From: Quercus robur
Lineage: Eukaryota; Streptophyta; Magnoliopsida; Fagales; Fagaceae
Length of the DNA: 64,000 bases
NCBI RefSeq assembly: GCF_932294415.1
Contig: NC_065538.1
Coordinates: forward strand, 18,451,656-18,515,655
Direction of reading: 5' to 3'
Of the stretch, positions 5,718 through 63,606 are shown one piece after another. The notes under the pieces were generated by a model. The model made no database searches and was not told the origin of the DNA. It saw nothing but the letters and a program-made list of their open reading frames with translations. Position 1 is the stretch's first letter. Every line of letters starts with the position of its first letter. Made by a program: the position numbers and the translations under genes.

Positions 5718-8422
5718 TTTGAGTCCCGAAAACAATTGGTGCATTTATTTCTCAACTTTATGACATCAATTCTATCTGAAATGAGAAAAAAAAACAAATC
5801 CCTGATAAGTTTGAGGAAGTCACAACAGATATTTCCTAATCATGGGCCAATATCAAAGGTTGATAACTCAGTCGACTACCAAATATACAAGCAAAATTCA
5901 ACATTTGAACAATAGATGAAGTTATTAAGATAAGACCCACTTGTCAAATTTTTTTTCTTTTTTTTGTGCCTTTCACTACAAATTTTATAATTGCTAAGTT
6001 GATCAACTGTAAGTGATGGACACAATTAAGTACTAACATTCAGGGACCCGTCATTTTTTCTCTATCCCTCATAATTGACTAACAGAATAAATGTGAAATC
6101 GGTTGTAAAAAAAGGTTAACATTAATGTATGCCTAAAGTCTAGAGAAGTGTTAGTAAAACTTGAAATAAATGCATTAACATATAGAGAGGACAGAGGAAT
6201 AGAGCATACAGGTTTAGAGAGAGTCTGAGAATGTGAAAAAGTTGTATTCAATTACGAAGTGGAAAAACCGAATCGACATTTTGATCAAGCAGAATGTGGC
6301 ACGAAACGGCGCGAATAGAGAGTGCCTTTGGTTTTGAATTTCCTTTTGACAGTTTTTGTAGTTAACCGCAGGACTCCCTCTCGGTTGCCGTGGTTTAGTG
6401 CCACATCGATCATATTATTCAATCACTCTGAAACCGCTGTTCATAAGGCCGACTTCTATAAGATCATCACCATGCTTTTGGCTAGTAGTTTTTTTTTTAA
6501 ATCCTTTTTTGATCGGCAAGCCTTTGGCTAGCTTATTTGTTTAAAAGCGAGACAAAATAGGTTTTAACCGGGAAAAAAAAAATTTAAGTAAATAAATTTT
6601 TTTTAGAGAGAGATTTTAAGTAAATAAATTGATTTATTTAAGTTGATTTTAAGTAAATAAGATAGTATTTTTATTGTAGTTTTGGCTGGGTGCTAAATTA
6701 TTGTGCCGAAAGAAAAAGGTCTGCATCTAATCTGATACGGGGTGAACCAATTATCAAAAATAATGTGCAAAGCTTCGGTTTGGTGTGCTCAGTTTTTGAT
6801 GACAATCATTTTATACTTCGGTTTGTTAATTTTTAATGACAATCAGTTTTTGATTCAAATTTTTAATTTTTAATTTTTTTTCCAGATTTTTGTAAATGTT
6901 TAAATTTTTTGAAAATGCCGACACAAAAACGCAAGTATAAACTTGTTTTTTTTTTTTTAATGAATATGGACTTGTTTTTTTTAGTAACTAGTCCGAAACA
7001 CATATGATGCACCGGAAAACTTTGCCTAAAAGTATGTTGGTCTCAAACTTTACATATAAAATATAATTAAATTATATTGGTCTCAGGGCCGGCTCAACAA
7101 ATTTGGAGGCCTTAGGCGAAAACTTTAGGCAGAATTTTTTTTAATTATTTAAATATTAATTAGATAATATTTATTTAATTTTTAATTTTTTTAATATTTA
7201 GTATCTATTTATCATTCTCTTTGAGATACAAAATTACTAATTAAATTTTTACATTTAAGTTTTATTAACATTTTCTTTTAATATCACTTAATCTTTAAGT
7301 AATAATTTGTAATTAAAATAAAACATGATCTGTAATAGAAAAATTATTAATTTTATGGAATAAAAAATTATTTATCACATAGGGACTAATGATATAAGAA
7401 TCTGGAAAAAAAATATATCTGAACTTATTATCCTAAAATTTTAACTTATTATCCTAAAATATATTATCTACTAAAGGGACAAATGATATAAGAATCTATT
7501 AACACAGTATCTCAATTGTTTGTCAATATCTGAACTTATGATCATCTTTATGCTTATGATGGACTTACCACTTTCATGCATTTGTGTAAAAAAAATAAAA
7601 AATAAAAAACCTACAATTTGAAGGCACACAAACAATTTGATCCAACTTGTAGTGAATTTCTTAATTGGTTGTAGGAGCATATCAAAAATCGTTAACAAAT
7701 TGGTTTTCATACCTAGTACCATAGCATCATTGACGACTCAAAATTTAATATGAATATAATTAAATGCAATATGACTATTGGTGACTATGCCATATCACAT
7801 AGCATTTGACTTTTTCTTTAACACAGAAAATTCTTAGGTACTCTTGGAATATAGTAAAATGGTGCTTCCTCCTTTCACATTCATGATAGACTCCACCATG
7901 AATTTAATGAGTGGATCCTACCATAAATTTGAGATAAGGGAACACTATTCACCGTGCTCTGGAAGTACCTAAGAGTTACTCCTATAACATAGCAAGAGAA
8001 GCACTCATCATCTTAGCAGACAATCCTTCCAATTTGTAGCTCATTGGTAAGATTGAATATTATCTTCAATTTGGGAAATCCTAATATAGCACTCAAAATG
8101 TGAGAGAGAGAGAGAAATTTTGGAAGAGGAAGAGAAAATAGAGTGGTGAGACTATACATTTCCTTTTTATTTTTATTTTTTGGAGTGATTATATATATTC
8201 TTTGACCATACATCTCTATTTGTTTAAACAGAAGGACTGAATTAAGACTTGAAAAATGAGTAGCAACATTAGTTTGGTCAGTTGCTAGTCGCGAGTCAAT
8301 TGCAAGATCCAATTGCGAGACTCCTCTTAAATGCACACAACTTGAGTTTAAACTAATCTAATAATGAGTAATGTATTTCGTAATCCAAAACACCAAAAAA
8401 AACGTAAACTAAAAAAAATTAA
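5718..8422. other. Upstream region of HVA22 and intergenic DNA
   Basis: The part next to 5718 should hold the 5' UTR and promoter of the minus-strand HVA22-like gene, but no TATA box or 5' UTR intron can be fixed. The rest is very AT-rich and has no recognisable coding sequence. A fragment of a hAT-like element end lies at about 7085. Confidence 0.4.
7085..7135 (+). mobile_element. hAT-like element end (fragment)
   Basis: CAGGGCCGGCTCAAC followed by TTTGGAGGCCTTAGGCGAAA closely resembles the left end of the complete hAT-type element at 35608 (CAGGGCCGGCCCAAG and TTTGGAGGTCTAAGGCGAAA). I found no matching right end within the next kilobase, so this is either a truncated copy or one whose other end has decayed. 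Confidence 0.55.
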
Positions 8423-10324: not shown

Positions 10325-10580
10325 ATTGGCGCCGTCTGTGGGGAGGCTTGCATGTTAGCTCGAGCGATGGTGAAGTTGAGCTTCCGTCGAACAAGGGGCT
10401 ACGAAGGTGCCTATATCACCGGCGACACATTACTGATGTTCCAACATAAGCTCTTACTAGGGGCTACGTTCCACGTCGTCGACGACATAGACAAGCCTAG
10501 GGGCTTCAAACACCAGGCCAGCTCCCCCCACCTTGTTCGAAGAGTCAAGCCTTCAGAAAACAAGCAAATAAAAAGAAACA

Positions 10581-11853
10581 AAAGCAAGTTTTGGACAGAA
10601 CCAAGGCCTTGCATGGTCCTCGGACCCAAGCCTCTGGGGAAACCAACTACTTACAAAGAAAAAGCAAGTTTTGGACAGAACCAAGGCCTTGCATGGTCCT
10701 CGGACCCAAGCCTCTGGGGAAACCAACTACTTGCAAAGAAAAAGCAAGTTTTGGACAGAACCAAGGCCTTGCATGGTCCTCGGACCCAAGCCTCTGGGGA
10801 AACCAACTACTTGCAAAGAAAAAGCAAGTTTTGGACAGAACCAAGGCCTTGCATGGTCCTCGGACCCAAGCCTCTGGGGAAACCAACTACTTGCAAAGAA
10901 AAAGCAAGTTTTGGACAGAACCAAGGCCTTGCATGGTCCTCGGACCCAAGCCTCTGGGGAAACCAACTACTTACAAAGAAAAAGCAAGTTTTGGACAGAA
11001 CCAAGGCCTTGCATGGTCCTCGGACCCAAGCCTCTGGGGAAACCAACTACTTACAAAGAAAAAGCAAGTTTTGGACAGAACCAAGGCCTTGCATGGTCCT
11101 CGGACCCAAGCCTCTGGGGAAACCAACTACTTACAAAGAAAAAGCAAGTTTTGGACAGAACCAAGGCCTTGCATGGTCCTCGGACCCAAGCCTCTGGGGA
11201 AACCAACTACTTACAAAGAAAAAGCAAGTTTTGGACAGAACCAAGGCCTTGCATGGTCCTCGGACCCAAGCCTCTGGGGAAACCAACTACTTACAAAGGA
11301 AAAGCAAGTTTTGGACAGAACCAAGGCCTTGCATGGTCCTCGGACCCAAGCCTCTGGGGAAACCAACTACTTACAAAGAAAAAGCAAGTCTTGGACAGAA
11401 CCAAGGCCTTGCATGGTCCTCGGACCCAAGCCTCTGGGGAAACCAACTACTTACAAAGAAAAAGCAAGTCTTGGACAGAACCAAGGCCTTGCATGGTCCT
11501 CGGACCCAAGCCTCTGGGGAAACCAACTACTTACAAAGAAAAAGCAAGTCTTGGACAGAACCAAGGCCTTGCATGGTCCTCGGACCCAAGCCTCTGGGGA
11601 AACCAACTACTTACAAAGAAAAAGCAAGTCTTGGACAGAACCAAGGCCTTGCATGGTCCTCGGACCCAAGCCTCTGGGGAAACCAACTACTTACAAAGAA
11701 AAAGCAAGTCTTGGACAGAACCAAGGCCTTGCATGGTCCTCGGACCCAAGCCTCTGGGGAAACCAACTACTTACAAAGAAAAAGCAAGTCTTGGACAGAA
11801 CCAAGGCCTTGCATGGTCCTCGGACCCAAGCCTCTGGGGAAATCAACTACTTA
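10581..11853 (+). repeat. 80-bp tandem array, 16 copies, inside the LTR element
   Basis: Copies start every 80 bases from 10581 to 11781. The last is slightly shortened and ends in AAATCAACTACTTAAATGG. The unit starts AAAGCAAGTTTTGGACAGAA and contains TGGTCCTCGGACCCAAGCC. Differences are few and clustered: TTGCAAAGAA replaces TTACAAAGAA in copies 2-4, CAAGTC replaces CAAGTT in copies 11-16, and GGAAAAGC occurs once near 11298. Since 80 is not a multiple of 3, the three forward frames permute from copy to copy. All three stay open for over a kilobase, giving an 80-residue periodic translation. A 524-codon frame (10280-11854) starts inside the LTR and crosses the primer-binding site, so I do not call it a gene. 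Confidence 0.97.
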
Positions 11854-33022: not shown

Positions 33023-35596
33023 AATGGTTGCGGGTTTGAGCCAGCAAACGTAAATTTTTTTTCATTTATTTTTGGATATGTAAATGGTGGTTCTTGTTGT
33101 ATGCTAGAACAGGAGAACTATTTAGGGGCTCGGTCATTGGTTTTGTACCACCTATGACACATGTATCCTTTGGTGGCACAGGCGCTTTTGTTCGCTGATC
33201 AATTTTTCGATAATACATATGTTGCTTATAATTTGTATGGAATGTGTATCAGATATAATCTGAATTCAAAAACATATCCGAAGAGTAATTGCATTTGTGA
33301 GCATGCTTGCAAGACTAGACACAAATTTGAATTAACACCCAAAAAAAAGGTACTGAAAACCTCAACAGCCCTACTCTGTTTTTGCTGTGTAGTATTCTTC
33401 TGCCAATGTTTTGTTAGTTTGAGAGCTGTTGATATTGTAAAGATTGGTTAGAAGTCTGCAGTATTACATCTCATAGATGCGTACATGGTATTCCCCAAAA
33501 TGTGGTAAACAAGGAGGATGCTAATAAGTATAAATAGGATTCAGTTGCTGTCCACCTTTGACCACTAACCCGTGCTGCAAAAATTTGCTTCCTGATACAT
33601 GTGGCGTATTTCAGCTCTCCAGGGTTTTAGAATGCAGAGATTCCTGCTCCCATGCAATAATTGACATCATTACTCCATTTAGAGCTTAATTGGATTTAGA
33701 AAATGCTTACATTACAAAATATTTGGATCATCTTCGCAACTTTATATCAATGTGTCTTGACATGAATAATTAACCAAGTCATTTTGAATTGATTGTAAGT
33801 TAAGCATGTAAACACCGTTTCAGCAAAAAGACAACTTCGGGAGCCTAATAAACAAGAAGACAACGTTATAAACTCATTTAATCAAGACTCTTTCAAAGCC
33901 CAAGACACAAAAAAAGTCAAACATTTCCTGATCCACCATATAAACAGACAAAACCAGGCCTATGAATTAGACAAACTGCAAGAAAGAGTGTAAAACCTCC
34001 ACCAAGGCTTCCAAGTCCATTAAGAAAAGCTATTATAAATTGGAGTTCTTCAAGCCTAAAAGCAAGCCAAGCCCACTTGGAGCCCAATTTGCAACTCAAG
34101 TCTAAACCTGAAGCAACATTCGGCTGGTGAACTCGTAGTCTTGAACTGGAATCAAGTCACCGAATCAGAAGCACGTCACACCATTGTCTACGAGAGAGCC
34201 ACTTGCCTTACCAAAAAAGAGAAAAGAAATAAAAGAGAGCCACTTGCTAGACAATAGACTTGCATGATAAATTTTTTTGAGAAACAAATGCACACAAACT
34301 AAAAGGAGAGGGAAAAGGGTTCACACATTACAATCTCCACTCAAATAATAATTAGTTATTTAGGTTTTCCTGTGTAACCTTTAGTTCATTTATGTTTAGA
34401 TGGAAACATGCTTTTGTAGTAAATTTAAACATGAATCACGTGTAGTAACATAAGAATTGCACTTTATTAGATGTAACACACACTCACATTATATATTATT
34501 ATGTATATATTTTTAATTAAATTAATAATTTTAATTATAAATTTATAATTTCAATATTATTAATTATTTATATATGATGTCAGTGGTCAGGCCATAGAAT
34601 CGGGAACCTTTCTAGTTCTTTGTTTTGTTTGATTTTTCAAACCATGCAAAAACCTCTCTACCGTATTTAAACCGATTGCAAAATATGTTCATTGCACTGC
34701 TAATCATGGTGGAGGTGCAAAAACGGGTGTCATGCAGTTTTCAATTCTGTTTTTAAAAAAACTGCAAAAAAATCATATCGCACCTATTAATACATAGGTT
34801 TTATTTTATAATTAATTTGCTAATATAGTAAAAAACATATAAAAACTGATCAAACCAAACCGCATCTCATTGCACTGCACAATAATCGATCTATTAAGGT
34901 GAGGTGCGGTGACACTTTTGGGCAAATTGCATCAAACAAACCATGTTCGGCCCTACCTAAAACTGTTGTGGTGTTAGGATTAAAAAAAAAAAAAAAAATC
35001 AACGTTTTAAAAAAAAAAAAAAAAAACCCAACAATACTTTTTTTTTTCCTTATAAAATATTAAATGAAAAATTATATAATAAATATATGAGAGTAAATTT
35101 ACACAAATTATTTTATACCCTCTCATTTTTCTTCCCAATTAATCAACATAATTTTTCACTCTTCCACTTTTCTGTCATCCATTCAAATACATATAAAATT
35201 AAATCTTTCCTAAATCTCACTTTTTCCATAACCAAGCCTTTAACTCCTAATGAGATATTTTAATCCTTTTTTTGATGAACTGAGATATTTTAATCCTATA
35301 TCACATCGTGGATCTTAATTACATGATTTACATCCACTAAGTCCACTTCTTCTTTATCTTTTTCTTTTTGAAGAATCCACTCCACTTAAGCACCAGATAA
35401 ACCTATCCAATAACTTATTTTAAATTATATATCTTTTTAAGAAGATATTTTAAGTTATATTAATCGTTTAAGAAGCCCAAAATATTAATTTCCATTTCCT
35501 TACAAAAACAGGACAAAAGAAGAAGCACAGCTGCTAGCATTCTCACTTTCATTCATATTGTTATCAATAAAAATTTGCATCTCCATTCTCCAAATT
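33023..35596. other. Intergenic region between gene A and the CNL pseudogene
   Basis: No coding sequence is recognised. The first few hundred bases are the 3' flank of gene A: CATATCCGAAGAGTAATTGC at about 33275 has relatives at 41147 and 51590, which links the duplicated copies. The region also has A-tracts at about 34981-35026. The last 60 bases before 35597 are the remaining 5' leader of the CNL pseudogene. Confidence 0.5.
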
Positions 35597-38500
35597 ATGG
35601 CCGAGGCCAGGGCCGGCCCAAGCGTTTTGGAGGTCTAAGGCGAAATCTTCAAATGGGGTCTTTATGGTATTACTTAAATAATATTTAACTAGCATTTTAT
35701 ATAATAATTTTTTTAAAATCCATTCTTTTTACTTTTTAATATGATTTTTTTTTTCGAGAAAATGTTAAAGTTATAACAAATTTTACTACAAACTAGTGTT
35801 GTAATGAATGTGATCAATGACATGAGGCTTACAAAAATACTAGAAATATTATAAAATTTACAACATGAGAATTACAAAGATATATCACCAATCACAAATA
35901 TTTATTTAAAAATACATTCAATAGTTTATTAAAATCCATCTATCATATTCATTGTCACATCAAATCATAAAAGTTATGGAGACCACCACGCACCATTGGT
36001 GCAGTGATCACTCCACAAGTATAAGTTCTTGTGAGGTGTGGGGGGCAATGACCAAGATCTAAGTCTCTAGAAGAGAGTTTCGCACACATATACACTTAAA
36101 TTAAGTTAGAGTAGAATTTTTATTTTGTATAAAAATAATTAAATAAATACAAGTTATGTAGTAAAATTTATAGTATTTTTAACATTTTCCTATTTGAATT
36201 ACTTGTGATTAGTAACACATCTATTTGTAAGACCTATTTATTTAAATTTGTCTCATCTCTGCCTCTAACATTACTTAATTCTTTGAGCTTTCTTAATAGT
36301 GAAAAAAAAAATGTAAACTAAAATGTTTTAATATCTCCTAAAAATATTTATATAAAAAAATATAAAAAAAATTTGCCCCCATATTTGGGGCCTTCTCTAG
36401 TAAAAGGGCCCTAGGCAATGGCCTAATTGGCCTAAGCCTAGGGTCGGCCTTGGCTGAGGCTCTAGTTTTTGTTCTGTTGGAGCAATTGCCTTCAATCACT
36501 ACTCAGGAGGCAAAACAAGGTATAAGTTTGGTTGTTGGTGTTGATGAAGAAGTCCAAGAGCTTGAAGACAATCTCCGAATCATCCAGGCGGTGCTTGAAA
36601 ATGCTGAGAAAAGACAAGTGACTGATGCAGCTGGGAAGCTTTGGTTGGAAAAATTCAAAGACACATCCTACAATATGGACGACGTGTTGGATGAGTGGAA
36701 CACTGCATTGATCAAACAAAGGATCCAGGAAAAAGAAAAAGAAGAAGAAATAGTTGAAAACGCTCATGTATTAAAGAAGTTACGCTTCTTTAGCCCCTCC
36801 ATTCCATCATGGTTCAGTAGAGTTAAAAAACTTGGTTTGCGCTGTGACATTGCTCACAAGATAAAAGAACTGAATGGAACGTTAGATGAGATTGCCAAAA
36901 AGAGAGTTGCATGAGTTTGAGTTGACTAGAGACAGTGAAGTAGTTGAGTGACCAACAACTACCACATTTGTTGATGTGTTTGATATATGTGGTCATGACA
37001 AGGATATGAATGATCTAGTGAGCAACCTATTGGGTAAGGATAGTGGACAAGAAAGAAACCCTATTGTAATTTCCTTAGTAGGTAAGGGTGGAATTGGGAA
37101 AACAACTTTAGCCCAACTAGCTTACAATGATCATGAGGTACAAGCCCATTTTGAGGAAATAATGTGGGTTTGTGTTTTTGATCCTTTCAATCAGTGTAGG
37201 GTTGCTAAAGAAATCATTGAAACTGTTGAAAATCGATCTCCGAACATTATTGAATTGCAAAGTCTATTGAATAGAATTTGTGATTTGATTAGAGGGAAAA
37301 AGTTTTTTCTTGTTTTAAATGACGTGTGGACTATAGATCACAAAAAGTGGGAGCCTTTCAAAAATGCATTCAAATGCGGTGCTCAAGGCAGTAGAATTCT
37401 AATCACCACACGTAATGAAGTTGCAAAGATTATGGGGATTGCTTACACAATCAATTTGGAGGTATTGTCTAAAGAAGAATGTTGGTTAATGTTCAGTAAG
37501 ATTGCATTTTTTGGGAAGGATCCTAAGCAATGTAAGCAACTAGAAGACCTTGGTAGGCAGCTAGCAAATAAGTGCAAAGGCTTACCCCTTGCTATAAAAG
37601 ACTTTAGGGGGTCTCATGTGCTTTAAGAAGAGTAGAGAACAATGGAAGAATGTTGTGGGAATTAGAAGATGTTGAGGAAGGGCTTTTCATATCGTTGTTA
37701 TTAAGTTATTATGAACTGTTGTTAGCAATAAAACAGTGTTTTTTATATTGTGTCGTCTTTCCAAAGGATCATTACCTTGCTGGAAAGGAGTTGGTCTATA
37801 AATGGATGGCACGAGGATATCTTCACTCAAAAGCAAATATAGAGCTAGAAATTGTGGGAGAAGGGTACTTCAAAAACTTAGCCATGCGCTGTTTCTTCCA
37901 AGATTTTGATAAGGATGTAAATGATGGCAAGATAATAAGGTGCAAAATGCATGATATATTGCATGACTTGGCCTAATTCATGACACAAAATGAATATGAA
38001 TGTTTTGCTGTGGTAGCTAATAGTGACCAAGGATTGGGGATAGACTATAAAAATGCTCGTCATTTGTTACTAACGGTTACACAATTATACACGTAACTCT
38101 ATACAATTCAAAAAATATGCGTACTTTTTTAGTGGGGGATTCTAACATTGTTGTATCCAACTTATTGAATTTGACACGTGTACGAGAATTATGTTTGAAA
38201 TGTTATTCCATTAAGGAACTTCCAAATGAGGTGGGAAATTTGATACATCTAAAATATCTTAACTTATCTCATTCTACACTTGAAGAATTGCCTGAAACAA
38301 TATCTAATTTATGCAAATTACAAACTTTAAATGTTAGTGCATGTCATAAGTTTAAGAAATTACCGCAAGGATTGGGTAAGCTAATTAACTTAAGGCATCT
38401 CATTTTTGAATTTATTTATTTGATTTGTCCAAAAAGGATTGGAAGATTGAGTTCTCTCAAAACATTAACTCAATTCTCCCTCAATTCTCTATAGGTGGTT

Positions 38501-39297
38501 GTCGTGATAATGAAGGATGTAAACTTGGAGAATTGAAAATTTTGAACCACCTTCAAGGAGATCTTCTTATCGAAGTGTTGAGACATGTAGATGCATATGA
38601 GGTCGAAAATGAACAACTCAAGAAGAAAATATACCTTCGTAATTTGCGTTTACGTTTTAGTAGAATGTTTGACAAAAATAGAATTGAGAATGATGTACTA
38701 GTTTTGAATGCCTTAGAACCACCTCCAGACTTGAAATATTTAGAAATTTATGGGTATTGGAGTACCACAATGTATCCTGATTGAACAATGTCCTTAGCCA
38801 AACTAAAAGCGCTTAAGCTCACAAAAATTAACCTATAGTGTTTGCCTCCTTTGGGGAAGCTGTTGTTACTAGAATCATTAGAAATACAACTGGCATTTAG
38901 TTTGAAAAAGGTGGGTGTTGAATTTTTGGGAATAGACTCCAACAACAACAACAAAGACATTGGATTAGCATCATCACTTGTCTTATTCCCAAATTTGAAA
39001 TCTCTAAAATTTGTCCTTTCAAAGAAATGGGAAGAATGGACTGGGGTTGGAGGAATGAAAGAAGAAAGATTAGAAAAGAAAGAAGATGGTGCAACTATAA
39101 TGCACATCTTCATTCCTTAACAATTAACTGTTGCCACAAGCTCAAGTCATTGCCAAACTTCCTTCAAACAATTCCATTGAAGGAATTGGAGATCATTAGA
39201 TCACCAATTATCAGCAAATGTTGCCAAAGAGGGAGAGGAATGGTCCAAGATTTCTCACATCCCTAATATCAAGATTGATATGCATATGTGCAAATAG
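35597..39297 (+). pseudogene. CNL-type (CC-NB-ARC-LRR) resistance gene, broken
   Basis: The original start is ATGGCCGAGGC at 35597-35607. A hAT element then intervenes and the frame resumes at 36453 as GCTGAGGCTCTAG (AEALVFVLLEQLPS). Recognisable parts are a coiled-coil domain with AVLENAEKRQ, P-loop GKGGIGKTT, kinase-2 FFLVLNDVW, GSRILITTRNEV, GLPLAI, CFLYCVVFPKD, CKMHDILHDLA, then leucine-rich repeats with LPPLGKLL and VKKVGVEFLG. Damage includes stops near 36912 and 36949 (TGA), a one-base insertion near 37600 followed by a deletion near 37645, TAA at about 37973 just after the MHD region, and further frameshifts or stops near 38492, 38782 and 38836. It is closely related to the intact CNL at 42165. 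An apparent start at 36450 is a TTG created at the element junction. Confidence 0.93.
35608..36452 (+). mobile_element. Non-autonomous hAT-type element, 845 bp
   Basis: It begins CAGGGCCGGCCC and ends GGGTCGGCCTTG, so the terminal inverted repeats match at 10 of 12 positions. It is flanked by an 8-bp duplication, GCCGAGGC at 35600-35607 and GCTGAGGC at 36453-36460, with one mismatch. The 8-bp size is typical of hAT. The subterminal stretches TTTGGAGGTCTAAGGCGAAA and GCCTAATTGGCCTAAGCC are partly complementary. The interior is AT-rich and has no transposase. It sits after the third codon of the CNL pseudogene. Confidence 0.9.
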
Positions 39298-40230
39298 ATG
39301 GATGTGCCCCGTCTGTGTGAGTAGACAACGATGAAGTTTTTGCCTCTGAGGTTGTTTTTGGGTGTTTCTAATGCATGGTGGTGGAGTTAATTTCAAAGGT
39401 GGAAGAGTTAGGCGTAAAGATGATCTTCATGCAATCTAGTTCGTTGCAGCTGAAAAAGATGTAATTGTATATTATACGTCCCATTCAAGCATGACATATT
39501 TTGAAATCTTTAGTAATCATTTTTTTTTTAATAGTGAAACTATTATCTAGCATCTAGGTGGATTGATAGTTGATTCTTCTTCTTCTACTTTTAAATGATC
39601 TTTTATATTTTTTTGTCTTTTTGTCTATTTGAATTAATTTGAAAGGAGAAGGAAATTTTTGGATTGAGAACATTAATGATTCTATTTTCTTGACTAGAAA
39701 AGGCTTAAATTTTAGGATTGGAAACAATGTACTTTATTTTCTTATTCTTTAATTTTTCCTAATTAATTTACTAATTTCAGTTATAAAAAGAAAAAATAAT
39801 AAAGAAAGTTGAGGATAATTTTTCTGTATATATGGTCAATAAAACATAATGTTGAGTAATTTTGAAAGAGTTGAATTTAAGTGTCATTTTCGTGTCAAAT
39901 TTTTGGTGTTTGCCTTTTTTTTTTTTTCTTTTTTTTTTATATTATATTTTTCTCTCATTATCATAGTCATCAATTTATTAACTCATTTTTTATTTGAATG
40001 CTATATAATTTTTTTTCTCTCAAAGGTGATATATATATATATGTGTGTGTGTGTAGGTTTGAAATTAGATAATAGATAAGATATAACAGCTTAATTTTTC
40101 TCATATAAAGAGAATTTAGGATATCCTTTGACTCCTTAGATGAAATCCTGGTTTTGTCCATGCCATTGTGTTTGCTCTTTTTTTTTTCTTTTTTTTAATT
40201 TTGACTATTTTATAAGGAAAATTAAAATAA
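39298..40230. other. 3' flank of the CNL pseudogene, AT-rich
   Basis: No coding sequence. It contains T-rich tracts near 39917-39940 and a TA then TG microsatellite at about 40031-40055. From about 40230 the sequence is shared with the region after the intact CNL. Confidence 0.45.
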
Positions 40231-42164: not shown

Positions 42165-45100
42165 ATGACTGCTATAGTTTCTGGCCTCTTGGAAAAGTCG
42201 GGTTCACTCCTTGCTGAAGAGGTATGGCCAGAGCTGAAGTCGTTCCTGTGTTTTCAAAATGAAGTCCGAAAGCTTCAGAGCACACTTCGTGCTATCCAGG
42301 CGGTGCTCGAGGATGCTGACAAAAGACAACTGAAGGAGGAAGCTGTGAAACTTTGGTTAGATAAGCTCAAAGAAGCAGCCTACGACGTGGATAATGTGCT
42401 GGATGAGGTGGAAACTGCAATCATTAAAGCAAAAATTGAGGAGGAAGAAGAAAAGGCTGAAACAACCACTGCTACTGCTAAGGTATGGTCCTCTTGCACC
42501 ACCTGCATTTCCTGGATTTTCAGAGTAGTTACTGAGCTTGTTCAGCGTGGTTTCATTGTTTTCAAGATAAAAAATTTGAATGAAACGTTAGATGAGATAG
42601 ACAAAGAGAAAGGGAGGTACAATTTTGTGTCTGGGCCGATTACTAGCCCTGAAGTAGGTGAGCGACTAGGAACTTACTCCCGTGTTGATGTGAAAGAAAT
42701 ACACGGTCGTGATAAGTATAGGGATGATCTAGTGAGGATGATTTTGGGAGAGGGTAGTGAAATGATGAAGCTTTCGGGTGAGGGTAGTGAAGTGAGGGGT
42801 AGTGAAGGAGAGAGAAGCCCCTATGTCATCTCCATAGTAGGCATGGGGGGCATTGGAAAAACCACTCTTGCCAAACTAGCCTATGCTAAGGTGCAAACTA
42901 AACTAGCCTACAATGATACTAAGGTGCAAACTGCCCTTTTTGATGAAAAACTGTGGGTTTGCGTATCCAATCCTTTCGACGAGCGTAGGGTTGCCAAAGC
43001 AATCATTAAGGGATGTCGTGGTTCCACCAACTCCAATGAATTGGAAGAGCTACTAAATGAAATGTGTGAGTTGATTAGGGGGAAGAAGCTTTTACTTGTC
43101 TTAGATGATGTGTGGACTGAAGAATTCAATCATTGGAAGCCATTTAAACTTGCACTCGAATGTGGTGACCTAGGTAGTAGAATTTTAATAACCACGCGTA
43201 GTATTAGAGTTGCAGAAATGGTGAAAAGTGCCTATACAATTAGATTGGATGTATTGTCTGACGAAGATTGTTGGTTGATATGTAGTCAAATGGCATATAT
43301 TGAGAAGGATGATGAGCAACTAGGAGAACTTGGTAGAGAATTAGCAAAGAAGTGCAAAGGCTTGCCACTTGCTGCAGAGACTCTAGGAAGTCTTATGCGC
43401 AACAAGAGAAGTAAAGAAGAATGGAGGGATAAATTGGATAGTAATTTATGGAAATTAGAAAATGTTCGAAAAGGTCTTTTAGGACCGTTATTATTGAGTT
43501 ATTATGAACAACCGTTAGCAATAAAATCTTGTTTCTTATATTGTGCTCTCTTCCCAAAGGATTATATTTTTTCAAGAAATGAGTTGATCCACCTATGGAT
43601 GTCACAAGGATATCTTGGCATAAATCCAGAGGAGATGGAAAACATAGGAGAAGAGTACTTTGAAATATTAGTCATGCGCTCTTTCTTCCAAGATTTTGAA
43701 AAAGACAACGATAATGATAAGATAATAACATGTAAAATACATGATATTGTACATGATTTTGCCCAATCAATGGCATCAAAGGAATGTTTCACAATTGATG
43801 GTGACAAAGAGTTAGGGACAAATTGTAGAAGTGCTTGCCATTTGAGATTAGAATTAATAGGGGAAACACAATTTCCTATGTCTATATGTAATGCAAAAAA
43901 TGTACGCACTCTCTTTTTCGCTCCATTGAATAAGAGGATTGTCTTCCCACTCAATTTATCCCAGCATTTGACATGCTTACGGGCATTGACTTTGAAATGG
44001 TATTCCTTTGAGATTCTTCCAAATGAAGTGGAAAAGTTGATACATTTAAGATTGCTTGATTTATCAGAAAATCATAATATTAAAGAATTAGCTGAAACAA
44101 TGTGTAATTTATGTAATTTACAAACTTTGAATATTAGTGGATGTGGGAAAATTACGAAATTACCCCAAGGAATGGGTAAGCTAATTAAATTAAGACATCT
44201 TCTTATTGGTGATTGTTATAAATTGACCGAACCCTTTCCAAAAGGGATTGGAAGATTGAGTTCTCTTAGAACATTGGAGAAATTCATAATAGGTAGTATA
44301 GATGATATTGACGGATGTAAACTTGGAGAATTGAAGAATCTGAACCACCTTAAAGGGTCTCTTATGATAAAAGGCTTGAAAAACGTAACAGATGTACAAG
44401 AGGCTGAGAATGCACAGCTTAAAGATAAGAAATATCTCCGTGAGTTGGGGCTATCGTTTGACAGGAGAGTTGAGGAGATTGAAAGAGTAAGGAATGATGA
44501 AATCGTTCTTAAAGCCTTAGAGCCACATTCAAACTTGGAAATTTTAAAGATTGATAAGTGCATGGGTAGAGTGTATCCTAATTGGATGAATTCTTTGTCC
44601 AATTTGAAAAGGCTTCATCTTTGGTGCTGGCCTAATTTAGAGCAATTGCCTCCTCTGGGGAAGCTGCAGTTCCTCGAAACATTAGTGTTAAGGGATGCGT
44701 ATAGTGTGAAAAAGGTGGGTGTTGAATTTTTGGGAATAGAAGAAGCCAATGGGAAGAACGGATCAACATCACCACTTGTCTTATTCCCTAATTTAAAGTC
44801 TCTCGAATTTGGGGATATGAAAGAGTGGGAAGAATGGGATGGGATTGGAGAAAGGAGAGAAGAAGAAGGAGAAAGTGGTGTTTCTGTTTTAATAAGTATA
44901 ATGCCACGTCTTCAGTTTTTGGATATTTGGAGATGCCCAAAGCTAAAGGCACTGCCCAACTTCCTTGAGACAACTTCGTTAAAGCAATTGGAAGTCGATT
45001 GTCGAATTTCCAATTGGATGACGTTGGCAACATTACCCGGATTGAAAACACTTTGTCTCGGTCTGAATAACGACGTGGAGCATTTGCCCCCTTTGGGGAA

Positions 45101-45614
45101 GCTGTTGTTGGTCGAATCATTAGAGATATACGGTGGTGCCGAAAGAGTGAAAAAGGTGGGCGTTGAATTTTTGGGAATAGAAGAAGAATCCAACAACAAC
45201 AAGAAGAAGATAGACGACGAGAAGGGATCGACATCATCATCTTCTTCTTCTTCGCTTGTCTTATTCCCTAATTTAAAGTCCCTCTCATTTTGGGGGTTGA
45301 AAGAGTGGGAAGAATGGGATGGGATTGGAGGAACAATGAGAGAAGAAGAAGCACAAGAAAGTGGTGTTGCAATTACTATCACTATTATGCCACGTCTTCA
45401 GTCTTTGACAATTTCGGATTGCCCCAAGCTGAAGTCTCTGCCAGACTTCCTTCCTACAACTCCATTGAAGACACTGAAGATCATTACGAGTCCAATTCTC
45501 AGTGAATGTTGCAAAACAGAGATAGGAGATCAATGGCCCAAGATTTCTCACATACCCAACATCCTTATTGATCATACATGGGTGCGAAGAGATGGTCATC
45601 CAATGCAAAATTAA
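42165..45614 (+). CDS. Intact CNL disease-resistance protein (RGA-like), 1149 aa
   Basis: A single exon. I prefer ATG 42165 (MTAIVSGLLEKSGSLLAEE), which matches the usual CNL N terminus, over the in-frame ATG at 42120. Numbering from 42165: coiled-coil domain about 1-165 with AVLEDADKRQ and YDVDNVLDE, the EDVID-like segment; P-loop GMGGIGKTT 226-234; kinase-2 LLLVLDDVW 309-317; GSRILITTRS about 337; GLPLA about 400; CFLYCALFPKD about 456; IHD 525-527 in the MHD position; then leucine-rich repeats to near the C terminus. As a family, CNLs are intracellular immune receptors that switch from ADP to ATP binding on pathogen sensing. Odd points are an extra 9 residues after the P-loop, IHD for MHD, an in-frame LRR duplication of 146 codons and a serine run from a TCT/TCA microsatellite. 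No stops or frameshifts, so it is probably functional. Confidence 0.93.
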   Translation: MTAIVSGLLEKSGSLLAEEVWPELKSFLCFQNEVRKLQSTLRAIQAVLEDADKRQLKEEAVKLWLDKLKEAAYDVDNVLDEVETAIIKAKIEEEEEKAETTTATAKVWSSCTTCISWIFRVVTELVQRGFIVFKIKNLNETLDEIDKEKGRYNFVSGPITSPEVGERLGTYSRVDVKEIHGRDKYRDDLVRMILGEGSEMMKLSGEGSEVRGSEGERSPYVISIVGMGGIGKTTLAKLAYAKVQTKLAYNDTKVQTALFDEKLWVCVSNPFDERRVAKAIIKGCRGSTNSNELEELLNEMCELIRGKKLLLVLDDVWTEEFNHWKPFKLALECGDLGSRILITTRSIRVAEMVKSAYTIRLDVLSDEDCWLICSQMAYIEKDDEQLGELGRELAKKCKGLPLAAETLGSLMRNKRSKEEWRDKLDSNLWKLENVRKGLLGPLLLSYYEQPLAIKSCFLYCALFPKDYIFSRNELIHLWMSQGYLGINPEEMENIGEEYFEILVMRSFFQDFEKDNDNDKIITCKIHDIVHDFAQSMASKECFTIDGDKELGTNCRSACHLRLELIGETQFPMSICNAKNVRTLFFAPLNKRIVFPLNLSQHLTCLRALTLKWYSFEILPNEVEKLIHLRLLDLSENHNIKELAETMCNLCNLQTLNISGCGKITKLPQGMGKLIKLRHLLIGDCYKLTEPFPKGIGRLSSLRTLEKFIIGSIDDIDGCKLGELKNLNHLKGSLMIKGLKNVTDVQEAENAQLKDKKYLRELGLSFDRRVEEIERVRNDEIVLKALEPHSNLEILKIDKCMGRVYPNWMNSLSNLKRLHLWCWPNLEQLPPLGKLQFLETLVLRDAYSVKKVGVEFLGIEEANGKNGSTSPLVLFPNLKSLEFGDMKEWEEWDGIGERREEEGESGVSVLISIMPRLQFLDIWRCPKLKALPNFLETTSLKQLEVDCRISNWMTLATLPGLKTLCLGLNNDVEHLPPLGKLLLVESLEIYGGAERVKKVGVEFLGIEEESNNNKKKIDDEKGSTSSSSSSSLVLFPNLKSLSFWGLKEWEEWDGIGGTMREEEAQESGVAITITIMPRLQSLTISDCPKLKSLPDFLPTTPLKTLKIITSPILSECCKTEIGDQWPKISHIPNILIDHTWVRRDGHPMQN

Positions 45615-53152: not shown

Positions 53153-56100
53153 ATGGCAGAACCGATTCAGTTGAGTCATCTCATTGAGTCCTTCGTCGAC
53201 TCGTCTCGTTCCCCGACTCAGCAGGTTCACGCTTTGCTTTCTTCTGCTCCAAATTCGTCACCTTTCATTGTTAAAATTTATTACTATCTTTTACTATTAC
53301 TCTCGTTTCATGCCGTGTTTGGTTGCCTAGAAAATCAATTTAAAAAAGAAAACCTTGGAATTTGAACTAATTCACATAATTATGTGTTAATTCAATATGA
53401 ACCCTCTGCTCAGGCTAGCACAATTCAAATAATTATTGGAAAAAAAGTTAAAAAGAATATTAAATTACTAAGTTCTGGGTCGTTAAATATTGAATTACTT
53501 GTTTTTTATATTGTTGTTATGGCAAAAACGATGATGGGTGTGAAATTATTTGGCTATCTAAGTTTTATATTGACACCATATTTCATATATTGTTCTTTGG
53601 AATAAGTACTATTTGTGTGAAATTAAAGCCTTGGATAGCATGAGTACATTGCCTGGAAAATGCAAAATTTAATGTAATTTAGGAAAAATATGCCATTGGT
53701 TACATGGCTATTGAAGAGCAAGAGGTTTGGTGGGTCACAAAAGAGATAAAAGTTTTAAGTTGGAATTGTATGCGTGATATCCACATGGGAAGCCATACAT
53801 GTTGCTACTGACAATTTTGGGATGTAAGCTATAAACATATGGAATAAGGGAAAGGAATGGCAAGAAGGGACGTGATCATGCAGTTGCCTATAGGTTTTAC
53901 TGTCTAGAGATAAGTCCAAAGGGCTCTTCTTTAGAAAGGTTCCCTATGTTATCAAAAAAAAAAAAAAAAGAGGGATGTGATCATGGTAGTCTTGCTCAAC
54001 ATTTACCTTTTTCCTACTCTTGTTATTTTTTCTGATTTTTATTTTTTATTTTTATTTTTATAAGTGTTATTCTTTCTGATTTCAACTGGGAAAGATTTGA
54101 ATTCACTGGTGCATGTGTGTATTGACCATCCAAGTAATATTTGTATGTAGCTTTATGATAGTTGCTTCATTCAAAATGGGCAATTTCTGTTGATTACTCA
54201 ATTTTTTGTTTTATTGTTATACTACTTTTTTGTCGGATTTCATTTATGTTTTGCTATGCCGTGAGCTAGGTTGAATTCACTCAATATGTGTGTGCACTAC
54301 AGGCTGCAAGCTTGGACAAAATTGCTTCTCTTGTGAAGAATGATGTATTAACTATGGAAGGACTGGTGTGCCTCTCTTATATAATATTTGTGTTTATTTA
54401 GTATTATTCTCTTGTTGGTCTATTTACTTTTTGGTTTGTGTCTCTTATCATTTTCTAAAATTTAGGTCAGGGAGATGCAGATGTATTTGACCACTACAGA
54501 TAACATCGTTCGTGCGAGAGGTACTTTAAGCATCTCTTATGAGGTGTTGGATGGAATGGTAGTTTTTCCTTTTGTGGTAATTAGTATATAAATAAATCAA
54601 ACTAAAGCTTGAATTCGAATACTCAAAATTTTATTAGCCAGCTACACTTTTTGAGTAGATTGCATGAATTTTTCAGTATACAGCTGTACAATGGCAGAGC
54701 TAGGGAGTTGCCTCCCTGACCCAGCAAACTTTGATATGTTCAAATCTTAAAACCATGAAATGTAAAAATGTTATCAGTGTATTGCTTTGTTGAGATTTAC
54801 CTGATGCTTTGATACTTGGATATGTTCATGTCTTAAAACCATGAAGTGTAAAAATGTTTTCAATGCAGTGCTTTGATGAGACCTAACATGTCCATCAACT
54901 TCTTTACGTAGAAAATTTATGTGTGTGTGTGTGTGTGTGTGTGTGTCAGTTATAAACTTTGTGATGGTCCCTTGTAGATATCTGCATGGTAAAGTTTTGT
55001 ATTTTTTCCCTCTTTTGGTTGGTATGGGCTTGGAAAAAGTAGAGGGGGAGGGGAGGGTGGGGGTCTTGTGGGCCTTATAAGTTAACAATATAACTCTAGA
55101 TTTTTGATAGGTTTTCTTATTCCTAAACCAAAATGATATTAGTTCCTGACAATTTCTTGAGACATGGTATTCTTTTCCAGGTATCCTTCTTCTTGCAGAA
55201 GTGCTTACATGTCTTGCAACAAAGCCACTAGACAGTGCTACATTACATAGCTTGATAGGGTTCTTCACTGACAGATTGGTGAGTAGGAAGTTATTTTCTG
55301 CAGCATCATATATGAAAGATCTTAATTTATAATTTCTGATTGTGATCTTTGTTTTCTTTCAAGTTTATGACTTCCATTTCCTTTTTAAATTCTACCTGGT
55401 TTGTGTGGTTTTATGATGTGCCCGGAGCCTTGGACAGATTCTGCTCCATCAACTTTACACGTTTAAGACATATATTTTTCATAATTATGTGAATAATTTT
55501 TTTTTCTTATCAAGAGTCAATTACAAAAATAATTCTTATTGGAGATCAGGCTTTTATTTTATTTTTGCACAAAAATCTGTAAATCTATCATACTTTGATT
55601 GCTTTGCACACTGTACACTAGAAGTCTTTTTGTCCGTCTTCAGGCTTAAGGCCTCTATATTCATTCTCTGTGGGTACATGAATCCAGGAAAATTTCACAA
55701 ACATGGTTTGATTTAGGTGGTTTTGTAGTTGCCTCCTTAATTGTTCTTCCTCTTGCTGAAATGGGTTACTATTTTGAAGCCTGTCTTTTCATGATTTGAT
55801 GGCATGGGGAAGGGTCTTTCCAAGAGAGGAAGTTTGTGACTTGATCTTGATTTAGAGGTTGCATATGTTTTCATCATGGTTAATCATGTAAATACCACAA
55901 ATAGAGATAGAGAATGGATATTATACTAGCCTCTGAACACGCACTACACGCATGTTCAGAGGCACTTCCTTTTTTTTCAATTAAAAAAAAAACATTTGTA
56001 TTTCTCTTAGTCAAGGTGCCTAAGAGGGTGGCTTTCTTCTTGTGGACCGCAGCACATGGCCAGATCCTTACCTTGGATAATCTCCGGGGCCTCCATTTGG

Positions 56101-59100
56101 CGAATAGGTGCTATATGTGTTGCTGTTCTTCGGAATCTGTGGGCCATTTTCTCATTCATTGTCCGGTAGCTTATGCTTTGTGGGTGCAAATGTTACAAGC
56201 TTTTGGGATTCAATGGGTCATGCCAGGTTCTGTGGTGAGTTTGGTGTCTTGTTGGAGCAATTGGTTGGGAAAATATGCTTTGGACGTATGGAATATGGTT
56301 CTTGGTTGTTTGATGTGGGTTGTTTGGTTGGAAAGAAACCGACCCTCTTTTGAGGGTTTGGAGAGAACGCTTGATCAGTTACAAGTGCTCAGCCGAAATA
56401 CTCTTTTTGAATGGGCTAAGTGCTGGGGTTATTCAAACTGTTCTTCTGCTTTGGAGTTCTTTTTTACCCTTAGTAGTGCCACTTAAGTTGCTTCTCTTAT
56501 TCTGTTTTCAGTTGTTTTTGTTTGCTGTTTTTTGTGTTCACCATCATGAACACTTGTAATGGCTGTTTGCATTTCTCTTGTTGAATAAAAGTCTTATTAC
56601 TTATAAAAAAAAAAACAAAATCAAATGAAATGTACCTTTCTCAAATGTGAGGTATTGTGTCACCATCAGAAAGACCTTTAATTTTTGTGGGGAGGTTTGG
56701 GGAGTTAGAGGAGAGAAATGAGAGCAGGAAGGATTGGGGAGGAAGGGAAAACTGAAATCAGGAAAAAAAAAAATCATATCCAATTGTGGGTTTTAAACAT
56801 GGAGTCCATCTATAAAAAAAATAATAATAATAATAAAAAGTGATATAGTTTTAAATTTTAGAATGGAAATACGTTTAAGGCTTGGAAGTTATCTTTTTAG
56901 AGAACTCCAACAATACGTGGGTGTTACAATGTTAGAATTCAAATGAAAAATGTAACCGCCCTAGATAAAGATGAGCATTATTATTATTTTTAAAAAAATT
57001 ATTGGCTTGTTTTGATTTTGAGTAAAAATCAGAAACATAGGTTATTTTGACAATATTGGAAGCATGGGATTGTTTTGATTCGAACGTGGGTTAGTGAGAG
57101 TTAGAGTAGTTAAAATTGCTTTTTTGTCCCTAAGTGACTGTTTGACACTTTGACCCACAAAATGTGTAGACTAATCATTAGGGATAATACTGGAAATAAG
57201 GACAAGAGGACATCTATGGTCTACTCTCTCAATATATAGAGATGTGTGAAGGGAGATTGAATTTGGTTAATCACCTTCATATTATTTCCTATTTTTTAGC
57301 TGTGGTGTTTTTGTATTGTGTTTGGGGCTTCCAACAATGACAAGTTCTTATAAAGTCGATGTGCTATATTTGTGGATATGTACTTTGGAAATTGGATAGG
57401 TTCCTTTTTGGCATTTTTCCCCATGTGTATTGATAGAGTAGCATATAGCTATTCTTTTAAAATTTGTTGGTTCTTGGATCGTTTTGTCAAGGGGAATTCA
57501 AGTGGAGTCTCTTTTCTTAATTTCTTTCTTTTGTTTCTTTTCAGTTTGACAATTCATTATAAGAACTGTCAGTAGTACTTAATAGGTACTCATCTCCTAC
57601 ATGTGTATGGCTTAATAGATCAGGATGTGCCCTTGAAAGTGAGTCTCATCTACTCTGAAAAAACATAGTTGGTCATGAACAGCTTCAATCCTGTTCAAGA
57701 TTATTCATAAAAAAAAATTAAAAAAAAAAACCCCTAGGTTCAAGCCCTAATGTCGGGCTCATTATCTCAGAAAGTGTTTGTACCGTTGAAATTAATAGTT
57801 TGCATTCATGTGACTGTATGTATGAATATGTTTGGACACATAAACATCTTCATATGTATTTACGTATATAAGTATTTATGTATGTCCTGTTGAATTTTCA
57901 TATTAATTAATTTATGCATTCATGTGAATGTATGTATGAATAATTTACACATACAAACGTCATCATATGGATATGGTGCATTTTTCTCCAGGAGGAGGTC
58001 ATGTTACATGTTCAGGTGGTTGCATTTAATGATTTATATAATAACAATTCCAAAGACAGATTTACTCATCTCTCTCTCTCTCTCTCTCTGGTTTGGTATT
58101 CCAGAGCTGTTTATATCAGTTTAAGGCCAAGGGTTTTGTTTACATGTCATTCTGCACTTTTTTGTTAATTTTTATCTCTCTTAATATATGGAATTTTAGT
58201 TTTACCTCATATGATATATAGATTTTTTTAGATTTTAATGTAATTTCCCTCAGATGAAAATTATAGCCTTTTTTACTCATGGTTTACTAGTTTACAGTTG
58301 TTTCTTATCAGTTTGTCTGGAAACTACCAAACCATAGAACCTAATCTGGAAAAGAGTCTAAAATAGATGATATCATATTTATATCAGGAAAAGAGGATCA
58401 TTAAATTTACAGGTGTTTCCTCAGATGACAATTATTGACTCCCTTCAGAACTTTCTCATTGTCTTCTTTGAATTATATCTGTTCTGTAATATTAAAGTAT
58501 AATAGATGATATCATATTTATACCAGGCAGATTGGAAAGCTTTACGTGGTGCACTTGTTGGTTGCTTGGCACTGATGAGGAGGAAAAGTAGTGCTGGTGT
58601 GGTTACTAGCACTGATGCCAAAGCAGTTGCAGAGTCTTTTTTACAGAACCTACAGGTGCAGTCTTTAGGACAGCATGATAGGAAGGTAATTCTTTTTTTC
58701 TCTCAAGCCATAGTTAATGGAGACAAATTAATAAATCTACACCAGATACCTACCAATACAATGCCTTATTACAATTTCAAAGTTTTTGACTTTACCATAA
58801 AAATGTTCTTGCAGCTTTGCTTTGAACTTCTGGAGTGCCTGTTAGAACGCTACCCCAATACAGTTACTCCAATGGTATCATTTCCAGTCTCATTTTTATT
58901 CTACTTTTCTTGTCCTCTTTTTGTAGTAATAAATTATTTTCATATCTGTTACTATAGAAAGAGGTCCAATGCTTTCTCCTGAAACCTGTTGAATTGAGTG
59001 TCTTAGAAAATTAACTTAAGACTAAGATAAAAGCTGTTGAGTTTGAGAAGGAATTTCTATGGTCAAATGACAAACCATGTGGGTTACTTTGTTCAACATG

Positions 59101-62100: not shown

Positions 62101-63606
62101 CTATCATGCTGTTTAATTGATTGAGCCCCAACTTTATATGCTCACAGCTCGATTCACTGAAGTATCTCAGCAGTTGCACATCAAATTATGGACCAGAGAG
62201 AATGGCAAAACATGCCAGAGCTATCTGGTTGTCAATTAAAGATGCATTATATACTTCACTCCAAGAGCCTACTTTATCCTTTACTTCAGAATCTCTAGAT
62301 GGACTTGTTTTTCAGGAGAATGAAATTGCAAAAGAAGCTTTAACGCTTCTGCAGCAGGTTATTATGCAAAACAATGGTCTTTTTTTAAGTTTGATTGTTG
62401 AAGATGAGGACATAAATATAATTTTGAACACTGTCCCTACTTATGAGAGTTATAATGATATTCCCTTGCAAGGCAAGCTTAAATTATTTGCAGCTGGTTG
62501 TATCCTGTCTATTTCTACCAAGACCTCCGTTGCTTGCTGTCATATGATTTTCGAAAGCTTCTTCCCCCGCTTGATGGAAATTCTGGGGCTTTCTGAAAAA
62601 AATTTATCTGGAGATCACTCACCGAAGGACAATTATTTAATCTCCAAAAGACTAAATTTTGGAGCTCTTTATCTCTCTGTCGAACTTCTTGCAGCATGCA
62701 GAGATTTGATTGCAGGCTCCACACAAATTGCTTGTAAATCAGTTTCTACATATGAGACAAGCTACTGCATGCTTCATAGCTTTTCAAATTTATTAACTAA
62801 GGCCTTTTGTTCTACCTTGGTGACAAGTCCTCATGATGCAGATATTTATTTTGGAGGTGAATGCTCTTATCTTACAATACCATAGGATATATAGATTTTT
62901 TTGTCCTGACCATGTTAATTTTTTCCATAAAAAATCTTAAGGATAGACCTTTTTTAATTAAGCATATAATATGATTAGCAATACTAATTACACATGTAAT
63001 CACTTACCAAAAAAAAAAAAAAAAAAATCTAATTACACATGTTATCATGTGCAAAATCTGTCATTTTGAAAGCTTTGCTGTTCAAGTTTATCTTTCTTTC
63101 TTGCCATTGTTTGCTTTTTAAATTAGTTATCACTGTTCCTTTTCTTTCTTTCTTTTTTTCTCTAATGAGAATAAATTATTTGTAAAACCTGACAATATTG
63201 ATCATTTATTTTGGACTTATATGCAGTGAAGGGTTTACAGATTCTAGCTACTTTCCCAGGAGATGTTTCTCCAGTACCAATATCCGAATTCGAGAATATT
63301 TTAATCACATTCATGTCAATTATCACAGTGAATTTCAAGAAGACACTATTATGGAGATTGGCATTAAAGGCATTGATGAATATTGGCTCATTTATTGATA
63401 GAAATAATGAGTCTGAGAAAATTTTAAGCTATATGCGAATTGTGGTTGAAAAGATTGTTTCACTGGTGTCTCTTGATGATGTTACCATGCCTTTCCCCCT
63501 CAAACTGGAAGCAATATCAGGCATTGGCACAAGTGGACTGAATTATATGCTGCACATTATCCAAGGGTTTGAAGAGGCTTTATTTGCCAATTTATCTGAG
63601 ATTTAT
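53153..63606 (+). CDS. MMS19: MMS19, 5' part (11 exons, continues beyond window)
   Basis: Exons: 53153-53224, 54303-54365, 54466-54520, 55181-55278, 58527-58685, 58815-58874, 59616-59804, 59897-59950, 61956-62042, 62148-62856, 63227-63606. They total 1926 nt (642 codons), frame intact. The protein starts MAEPIQLSHLIESFVDSSRS. It continues with SLVKNDVLTMEGL, VREMQMYLTTTDNIVRARGI, ADWKALRGALVGCLALMRRK, CFELLECLLERYP and PFASFAGDLFEIL, as expected for MMS19's N-terminal HEAT-repeat region. MMS19 works with CIA1, CIA2/AE7 and NAR1 to insert iron-sulphur clusters into nuclear and cytosolic proteins such as DNA polymerases and XPD-type helicases. Plant homologues are about 1,130 residues, so nearly half lies outside the window. 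Introns 4 (3.2 kb) and 8 (2.0 kb) contain LINE insertions. The donor after exon 2 is GTGTGC and that after exon 11 is GTATGT. No defects seen. Confidence 0.95.
54918..54946. repeat. GT microsatellite in MMS19 intron 3
   Basis: An uninterrupted GT run of about 14 repeats following TTTATGTGTG. It is non-coding. Other CT/TC runs lie at about 58071-58090 and 59452-59476 in later introns. Confidence 0.85.
55914..56620 (+). mobile_element. 5'-truncated LINE with zf-RVT domain in MMS19 intron 4
   Basis: An open frame at 55914-56486 includes VPKRVAFFLWTAAHGQILTL, RCYMCCCSSESVGHFLIHCP and LGCLMWVVWLERNRPSFEG. This is the reverse-transcriptase zinc-binding (zf-RVT) region at the end of plant LINE ORF2. 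It is followed by AATAAAAGTCTTATTACTTA and a poly(A) stretch at about 56606-56620. The reverse transcriptase and endonuclease are missing, so it is a dead 5'-truncated copy. I could not find target duplications. The frame upstream of about 56005 may be host intron. Confidence 0.75.
60944..61722 (+). mobile_element. 5'-truncated LINE with zf-RVT domain in MMS19 intron 8
   Basis: The translation includes DDFFQFLASNLPSVIDGDSM, KAPWRVSFFVWTAAWDKILT, DNLRVRGFDFIDWCIMCRCC and GETLDHLLLHYGKAYRLWSF, with in-frame stops. It ends ACTTATAATAAAAAAAA. A 17-bp target duplication, AAATTGATCATGTGATG, lies at 60927-60943 and 61723-61739, which fixes the ends and the plus orientation. The element is related to but clearly different from the copy in intron 4. 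Confidence 0.9.

Follow-up and report, generated by a model that had tools for sequence, protein, structure and literature searches.

A non-autonomous hAT element interrupts a plant CNL immune-receptor gene in its fourth codon

A non-autonomous hAT element splits a plant CNL immune-receptor gene in codon 4. This was confirmed in the stretch of Quercus robur DNA analyzed here (64,000 nucleotides; hereafter the window), where it forms a clear and datable transposon interruption of such a gene, the gene's own mutation load serving as a second clock. The features at the insertion site are as follows:

35597-35599, + strand: start codon (ATG) of the CNL gene, left of the hAT element (from paralogue starts and upstream alignment)
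35600-35607, no strand: left copy of the 8-bp target-site duplication, GCCGAGGC, which spans codons 2 and 3 plus two bases of codon 4
35608-36452, + strand: non-autonomous hAT element of 845 bp with the termini CAGGGCCGGCCC and CAAGGCCGACCC (from family matches with the same ends)
35608-35619, + strand: left terminal inverted repeat
36441-36452, − strand: right terminal inverted repeat
36453-36460, no strand: right copy of the target-site duplication, GCTGAGGC, followed by TCTAGTTTTT

Read from 35597, the order is ATG GCC GAG GC, then CAGGGCCGGCCC as the start of the element and, 845 bases on, GGGTCGGCCTTG as its end, followed by GCTGAGGCTCTAGTTTTT. The two copies of the duplication are equal in 7 of 8 bases, and their location in codons 2-4 is as an earlier, sequence-only reading had described it. 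That reading had also recognized the hAT element and the start of a CNL gene, both of which stand, but it had placed the element right after the third codon, whereas the insertion point is between the second and third bases of codon 4. Its proposal that the flanks join into the CNL start MAEALV is borne out by paralogues, in which the start region is uninterrupted. From the ATG at 35597, 13 codons are read before a TAA at 35636, within the start of the element, in keeping with the claim that the insertion by itself abolishes the normal protein. The TTG with which the element end was said to create a false start is indeed present in frame (36450-36452); it is, however, an accident of the ORF finder rather than a real start, because it coincides with the final three bases of the element, and at 36450 the family most often has C (21 of 39 copies, against T in 4, most of the rest being unaligned).

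Short terminal inverted repeats beginning CA(G/A)GG are typical of hAT elements, and those of the element begin in this form. In the window copy, 10 of their 12 bases are equal; the family consensus has the termini CAGGGCCGGCCC and GGGCCGGCCCTG. When the genome itself was searched with the element (786 Mb in 42 contigs), at least 40 further matches of 85-92% identity were found, most of them with the same two ends; as 40 of 3715 first-look candidates were scored, this copy number is a lower bound. Thirty-nine of the 40 matches were fetched, a partial match beside another copy being left out. With end shifts of as much as 4 bases permitted, 31/39 copies were flanked by 8-bp repeats that differ in no more than one base, compared with 3/113 controls, for which the flanks were moved outward by 15, 25 or 35 bases. 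By the number of mismatches in the best such repeat, the 39 copies divide into 15 with none, 16 with one, 2 with two, 3 with three, 2 with four and 1 with five. Under a stricter limit (end shift of at most 1 base in all), 28/39 copies kept the 8-bp repeat. With one mismatch in 16 of 39 copies, the single mismatch of the window copy is thus normal for the family.

The terminal motif alone is not rare: CAGGGCCGGCCC with up to three mismatches occurred 11 times in the window, compared with a mean of 6.5 in shuffled sequence, and 7 of 100 shuffles held as many. The insertion structure is nevertheless no chance product, because the ends are exactly those of a repeat family whose copies are flanked by 8-bp repeats. 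Although one assembly stands behind the structure, the duplication falls exactly at the family-exact ends of the element, and an artefact of assembly or chance is therefore extremely improbable. The genome encodes at least 150 hAT dimerisation domains (of 1503 candidates, 150 were scored), and the element was presumably moved in trans by a transposase encoded elsewhere in the genome. The diverged end of a related hAT element lies at 7084-7197 in the window (71% over 116 aligned columns, terminal motif one mismatch off).

A genome search with the gene body returned 78 candidates, of which 40 were scored and 19 paralogue loci (L010-L028) fetched; among these best 40 of 78, the best full-length paralogues are ∼71% identical. 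An open frame of 875-1250 codons is present at 11 of the 19 loci and, after a longer fetch (L031), at a twelfth. In 8/19 loci (L010, L011, L012, L013, L014, L015, L020 and L027), an ATG directly precedes the base that here follows the element; a ninth, L028, has ATGTCA there. L010 starts with ATG GCT GAG GCT CTA GTT, its ATG standing directly before GCTGAGGCTCTAGTTT; it is the nearest locus by identity (73%) but not a firm sister of the window gene in the tree (supports 76 and 88). Upstream of the ATG, 70 bases align to L015, L022 and L028 better than 300/300 shuffles; against the other 9 of 12 paralogues, the score was reached by 3-90 of 300 shuffles. The empty site is shown by the starts of paralogues, and therefore in paralogues rather than in an allele: this single assembly yielded no element-free allele, nor did it contain a second copy of the 5′ flank (35210-35607), to which only a 40-base match on another contig was found. 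An uninterrupted orthologue lacking the start region, which the sequence-only reading had named as counter-evidence, did not appear; the paralogues carry that region intact.

Restoration of the frame by splicing, likewise named there, finds only weak candidate sites in the sequence. Eight donor–acceptor pairs (at least 70 bases apart each) would join the ATG at 35597 to the CC domain without a frame shift as far as 36914; by this route the element might leave the transcript as an intron, and either a CNL or a short protein with the CC domain still be made. These eight pairs, however, use just two donors, 35624 and 35633, neither of which agrees with the consensus at more than 4 of 9 positions (home-made score), and the T at 35634 that makes one of them the better donor is found in 6/39 other copies (C in 31/39). 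Whichever pair is used, the frame ends at 36914 and further lesions lie beyond, and no intron occupies the insertion position in the paralogues that have a long open frame. A full protein can thus not be made by splicing now, and continued synthesis of any such product is very unlikely.

The remainder of the gene, and the intact neighbor used as a yardstick, are located as follows:

36453-39300, + strand: body of the CNL pseudogene with Rx_N, NB-ARC and LRR parts, end approximate (from Pfam, tblastn and frame-tolerant alignment)
42168-45614, + strand: neighboring CNL gene, one open frame of 1148 codons

On the broken pieces after the element, Pfam recognized Rx_N (E 2.6e-21) and NB-ARC (E 5.1e-47), and the LRR part was recognized by tblastn alignment to the intact neighbor. 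Lesions were counted with a home-made frame-tolerant alignment to five intact paralogues, against each of which the gene body showed 4 in-frame stops, together with 8, 8, 6, 8 and 7 frame changes; they are located between ∼36.9 and 39.3 kb. With 4 stops and 6-8 frame changes, the reading frame is not intact and the CNL gene is therefore a pseudogene. Its membership in the CNL family suggests a former role in disease resistance.

Both the element and the gene body carry a record of time. The window element differs from the family consensus in 43/843 bases (34 transitions and 9 transversions) and by 3 indel events, at a distance of 0.051 and with a terminal branch of 0.033; as 27 of the 43 differences are C>T or G>A and 12 are private to the window copy, this branch is an inflated upper bound. 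In the gene body, 4 stops at 0.038 stops per neutral substitution correspond to 0.037 (95% interval 0.010-0.096), and 6-8 frame changes, scaled by the indel-to-substitution ratio of the element copies, to 0.022-0.061 (intervals together 0.008-0.120). The lesion load of the gene body thus amounts to ∼0.02-0.06 neutral substitutions per site, near the element branch of 0.033, and the two ages agree within wide limits. The whole branch of the gene measures 0.234; were it neutral, 25 stops would be expected compared with the 4 seen, and most of it was therefore spent as a gene. A codon-position test (branch lengths at positions 1 and 2 versus 3) was tried as a clock for the death of the gene and rejected: the value of the pseudogene, 0.733, falls inside the range of the other 12 genes (0.654-1.323), which leaves the test silent on the time of death.

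A partial duplicate of the pseudogene gives some order to its lesions. L029 contains 584 bp of the LRR part at 95% identity; of the four stops, two are missing there, as is one frame change, and these three lesions therefore postdate the split. Over 580 bp since then, the window copy has gained 14-18 substitutions (4 of the 18 in the last ten bases) and the fragment 6, with 2 ambiguous. The fragment (L029:4063-4646; contig C5, near 33688062) is without the rest of the gene and lies ∼1 kb from open frames that look MULE-transposase-like by eye.

The gene might already have been dead, in which case the arrival of the element in what was by then a pseudogene had no effect. The upper bounds of the lesion clocks (0.049-0.120) do exceed the element age (0.014-0.051), and L010 is in pieces (340 and 506 codons) without any element at its start. 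The point estimates of 0.022-0.061, on the other hand, overlap the element branch, and the two stops and one frame change just mentioned are younger than the L029 duplication. Prior death is accordingly possible but the less probable course, and the gene may plausibly have died close to the time of insertion. The suggestion that the many later frameshifts followed the loss of function is compatible with the lesion clock, which does not prove that the insertion came first; the estimates of element age and lesion age overlap, but with intervals too wide to single out the first inactivating event.

The element itself contains a further insertion:

35967-35981, no strand: left copy of the duplication flanking the SINE, ATAAAAGTTATGGAG (repeat family D10, 87% identical)
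35982-36146, + strand: SINE within the hAT element, ends approximate (from family alignments and free copies)
36147-36161, no strand: right copy of the duplication flanking the SINE, ATACAAGTTATGTAG

The 15-base direct repeat is equal in 13/15 positions here and in 14/15 in the family consensus (by eye), and the inner stretch of ∼165 bases is also found at other genomic sites. Fifty-one exact matches were obtained with a 17-base pattern based on the SINE; one of its bases had been changed to the form expected of free copies, and being one base off the hAT-borne form, the pattern favors free SINE copies. Eight of the 51 loci were fetched, and all eight (8/8) were free copies outside the hAT element, their similarity to the element consensus being limited to positions 354-390 to 530-547, bar short A-rich matches. 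As the copies of the family carry the SINE, it was captured before the family multiplied; arrival in the window copy after the hAT insertion is ruled out, the family alignments running through the SINE. The SINE may be tRNA-derived: a resemblance to A and B boxes was seen by eye. ARAGORN found no tRNA in the window. A hAT family bearing a SINE is a mild curiosity.

A second CNL paralogue has been hit in a similar way. In L016 (also L084), a related hAT element of 868 bp (L084:377-1244; contig C3:13849376-13850243) lies 98 bases into the CNL coding sequence. It is oppositely oriented and its 8-bp duplication, GTTGACGA, is perfect; it is ∼72-78% similar to parts of the window family, and this gene, too, is in pieces. 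The SINE had no match in this element, which is no clean empty SINE site because its middle is filled with other sequence. Two independent insertions, at 11 and 98 bases into the coding sequence, thus affect 2 CNL paralogues among 20 loci (the window gene and the 19 others). If hAT elements of this group did prefer sites in or near the first coding stretch of CNL genes, receptors would be lost recurrently, and transposition could be measured as a source of receptor turnover. Such a preference does not follow from two cases, and we consider it improbable.

Taken together, the following course is very probable. A high-copy hAT family would have supplied a non-autonomous transposon, which a transposase from elsewhere in the genome brought into a single-exon CNL gene, between the second and third bases of codon 4, with duplication of 8 bp of the coding sequence. 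Translation from the normal ATG would then have ended after 13 codons at the stop inside the element, and the gene body, freed from selection or already free of it, would have gathered stops and frame changes at the neutral rate. Loss of function at the insertion, and with it this order of events, is compatible with the clocks. Transposon insertion together with breaking mutations is an ordinary death of plant immune-receptor genes; in substance the finding holds, and it is nothing unusual in kind.

Elsewhere in the window, a tandem array at 10580-11853 comprises ∼16 copies of an 80-bp unit (99% matching) and is open in several frames because of the unit period. A remnant containing a zf-RVT domain (55914-56486; E 7e-13) suggests a non-LTR retrotransposon, and two frames with MMS19_N matches (58506-58982 and 62121-62885; E 1.2e-06 and 2.2e-05, the second below the Pfam cut-off) are probably exons from an MMS19-like gene.

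A literature search recognized no description of this hAT family, SINE or locus, which does not prove its absence, but each component has relatives in known systems. The high-copy hAT families of grapevine have 8-bp duplications and terminal repeats of 8-23 bp (PMC2528002); the window family resembles them in its short terminal inverted repeats, 8-bp duplications, high copy number and many defective members, and differs in carrying a SINE in its middle. The RGA08 cluster of banana contains resistance-gene pseudogenes with frameshifts, in-frame stops and one repeat insertion (PMC3017797). These are likewise CNL genes, but the repetitive element there is RE5, whereas the window gene has a hAT element in codon 4. 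In MER6, a mammalian Tc1/Mariner MITE, SINE sequence has been multiplied inside the MITE (PMC6887750). The likeness lies in SINE-derived sequence multiplied within a non-autonomous DNA transposon; superfamily and host are different, and the SINE of the window looks whole and has its own flanking duplication.
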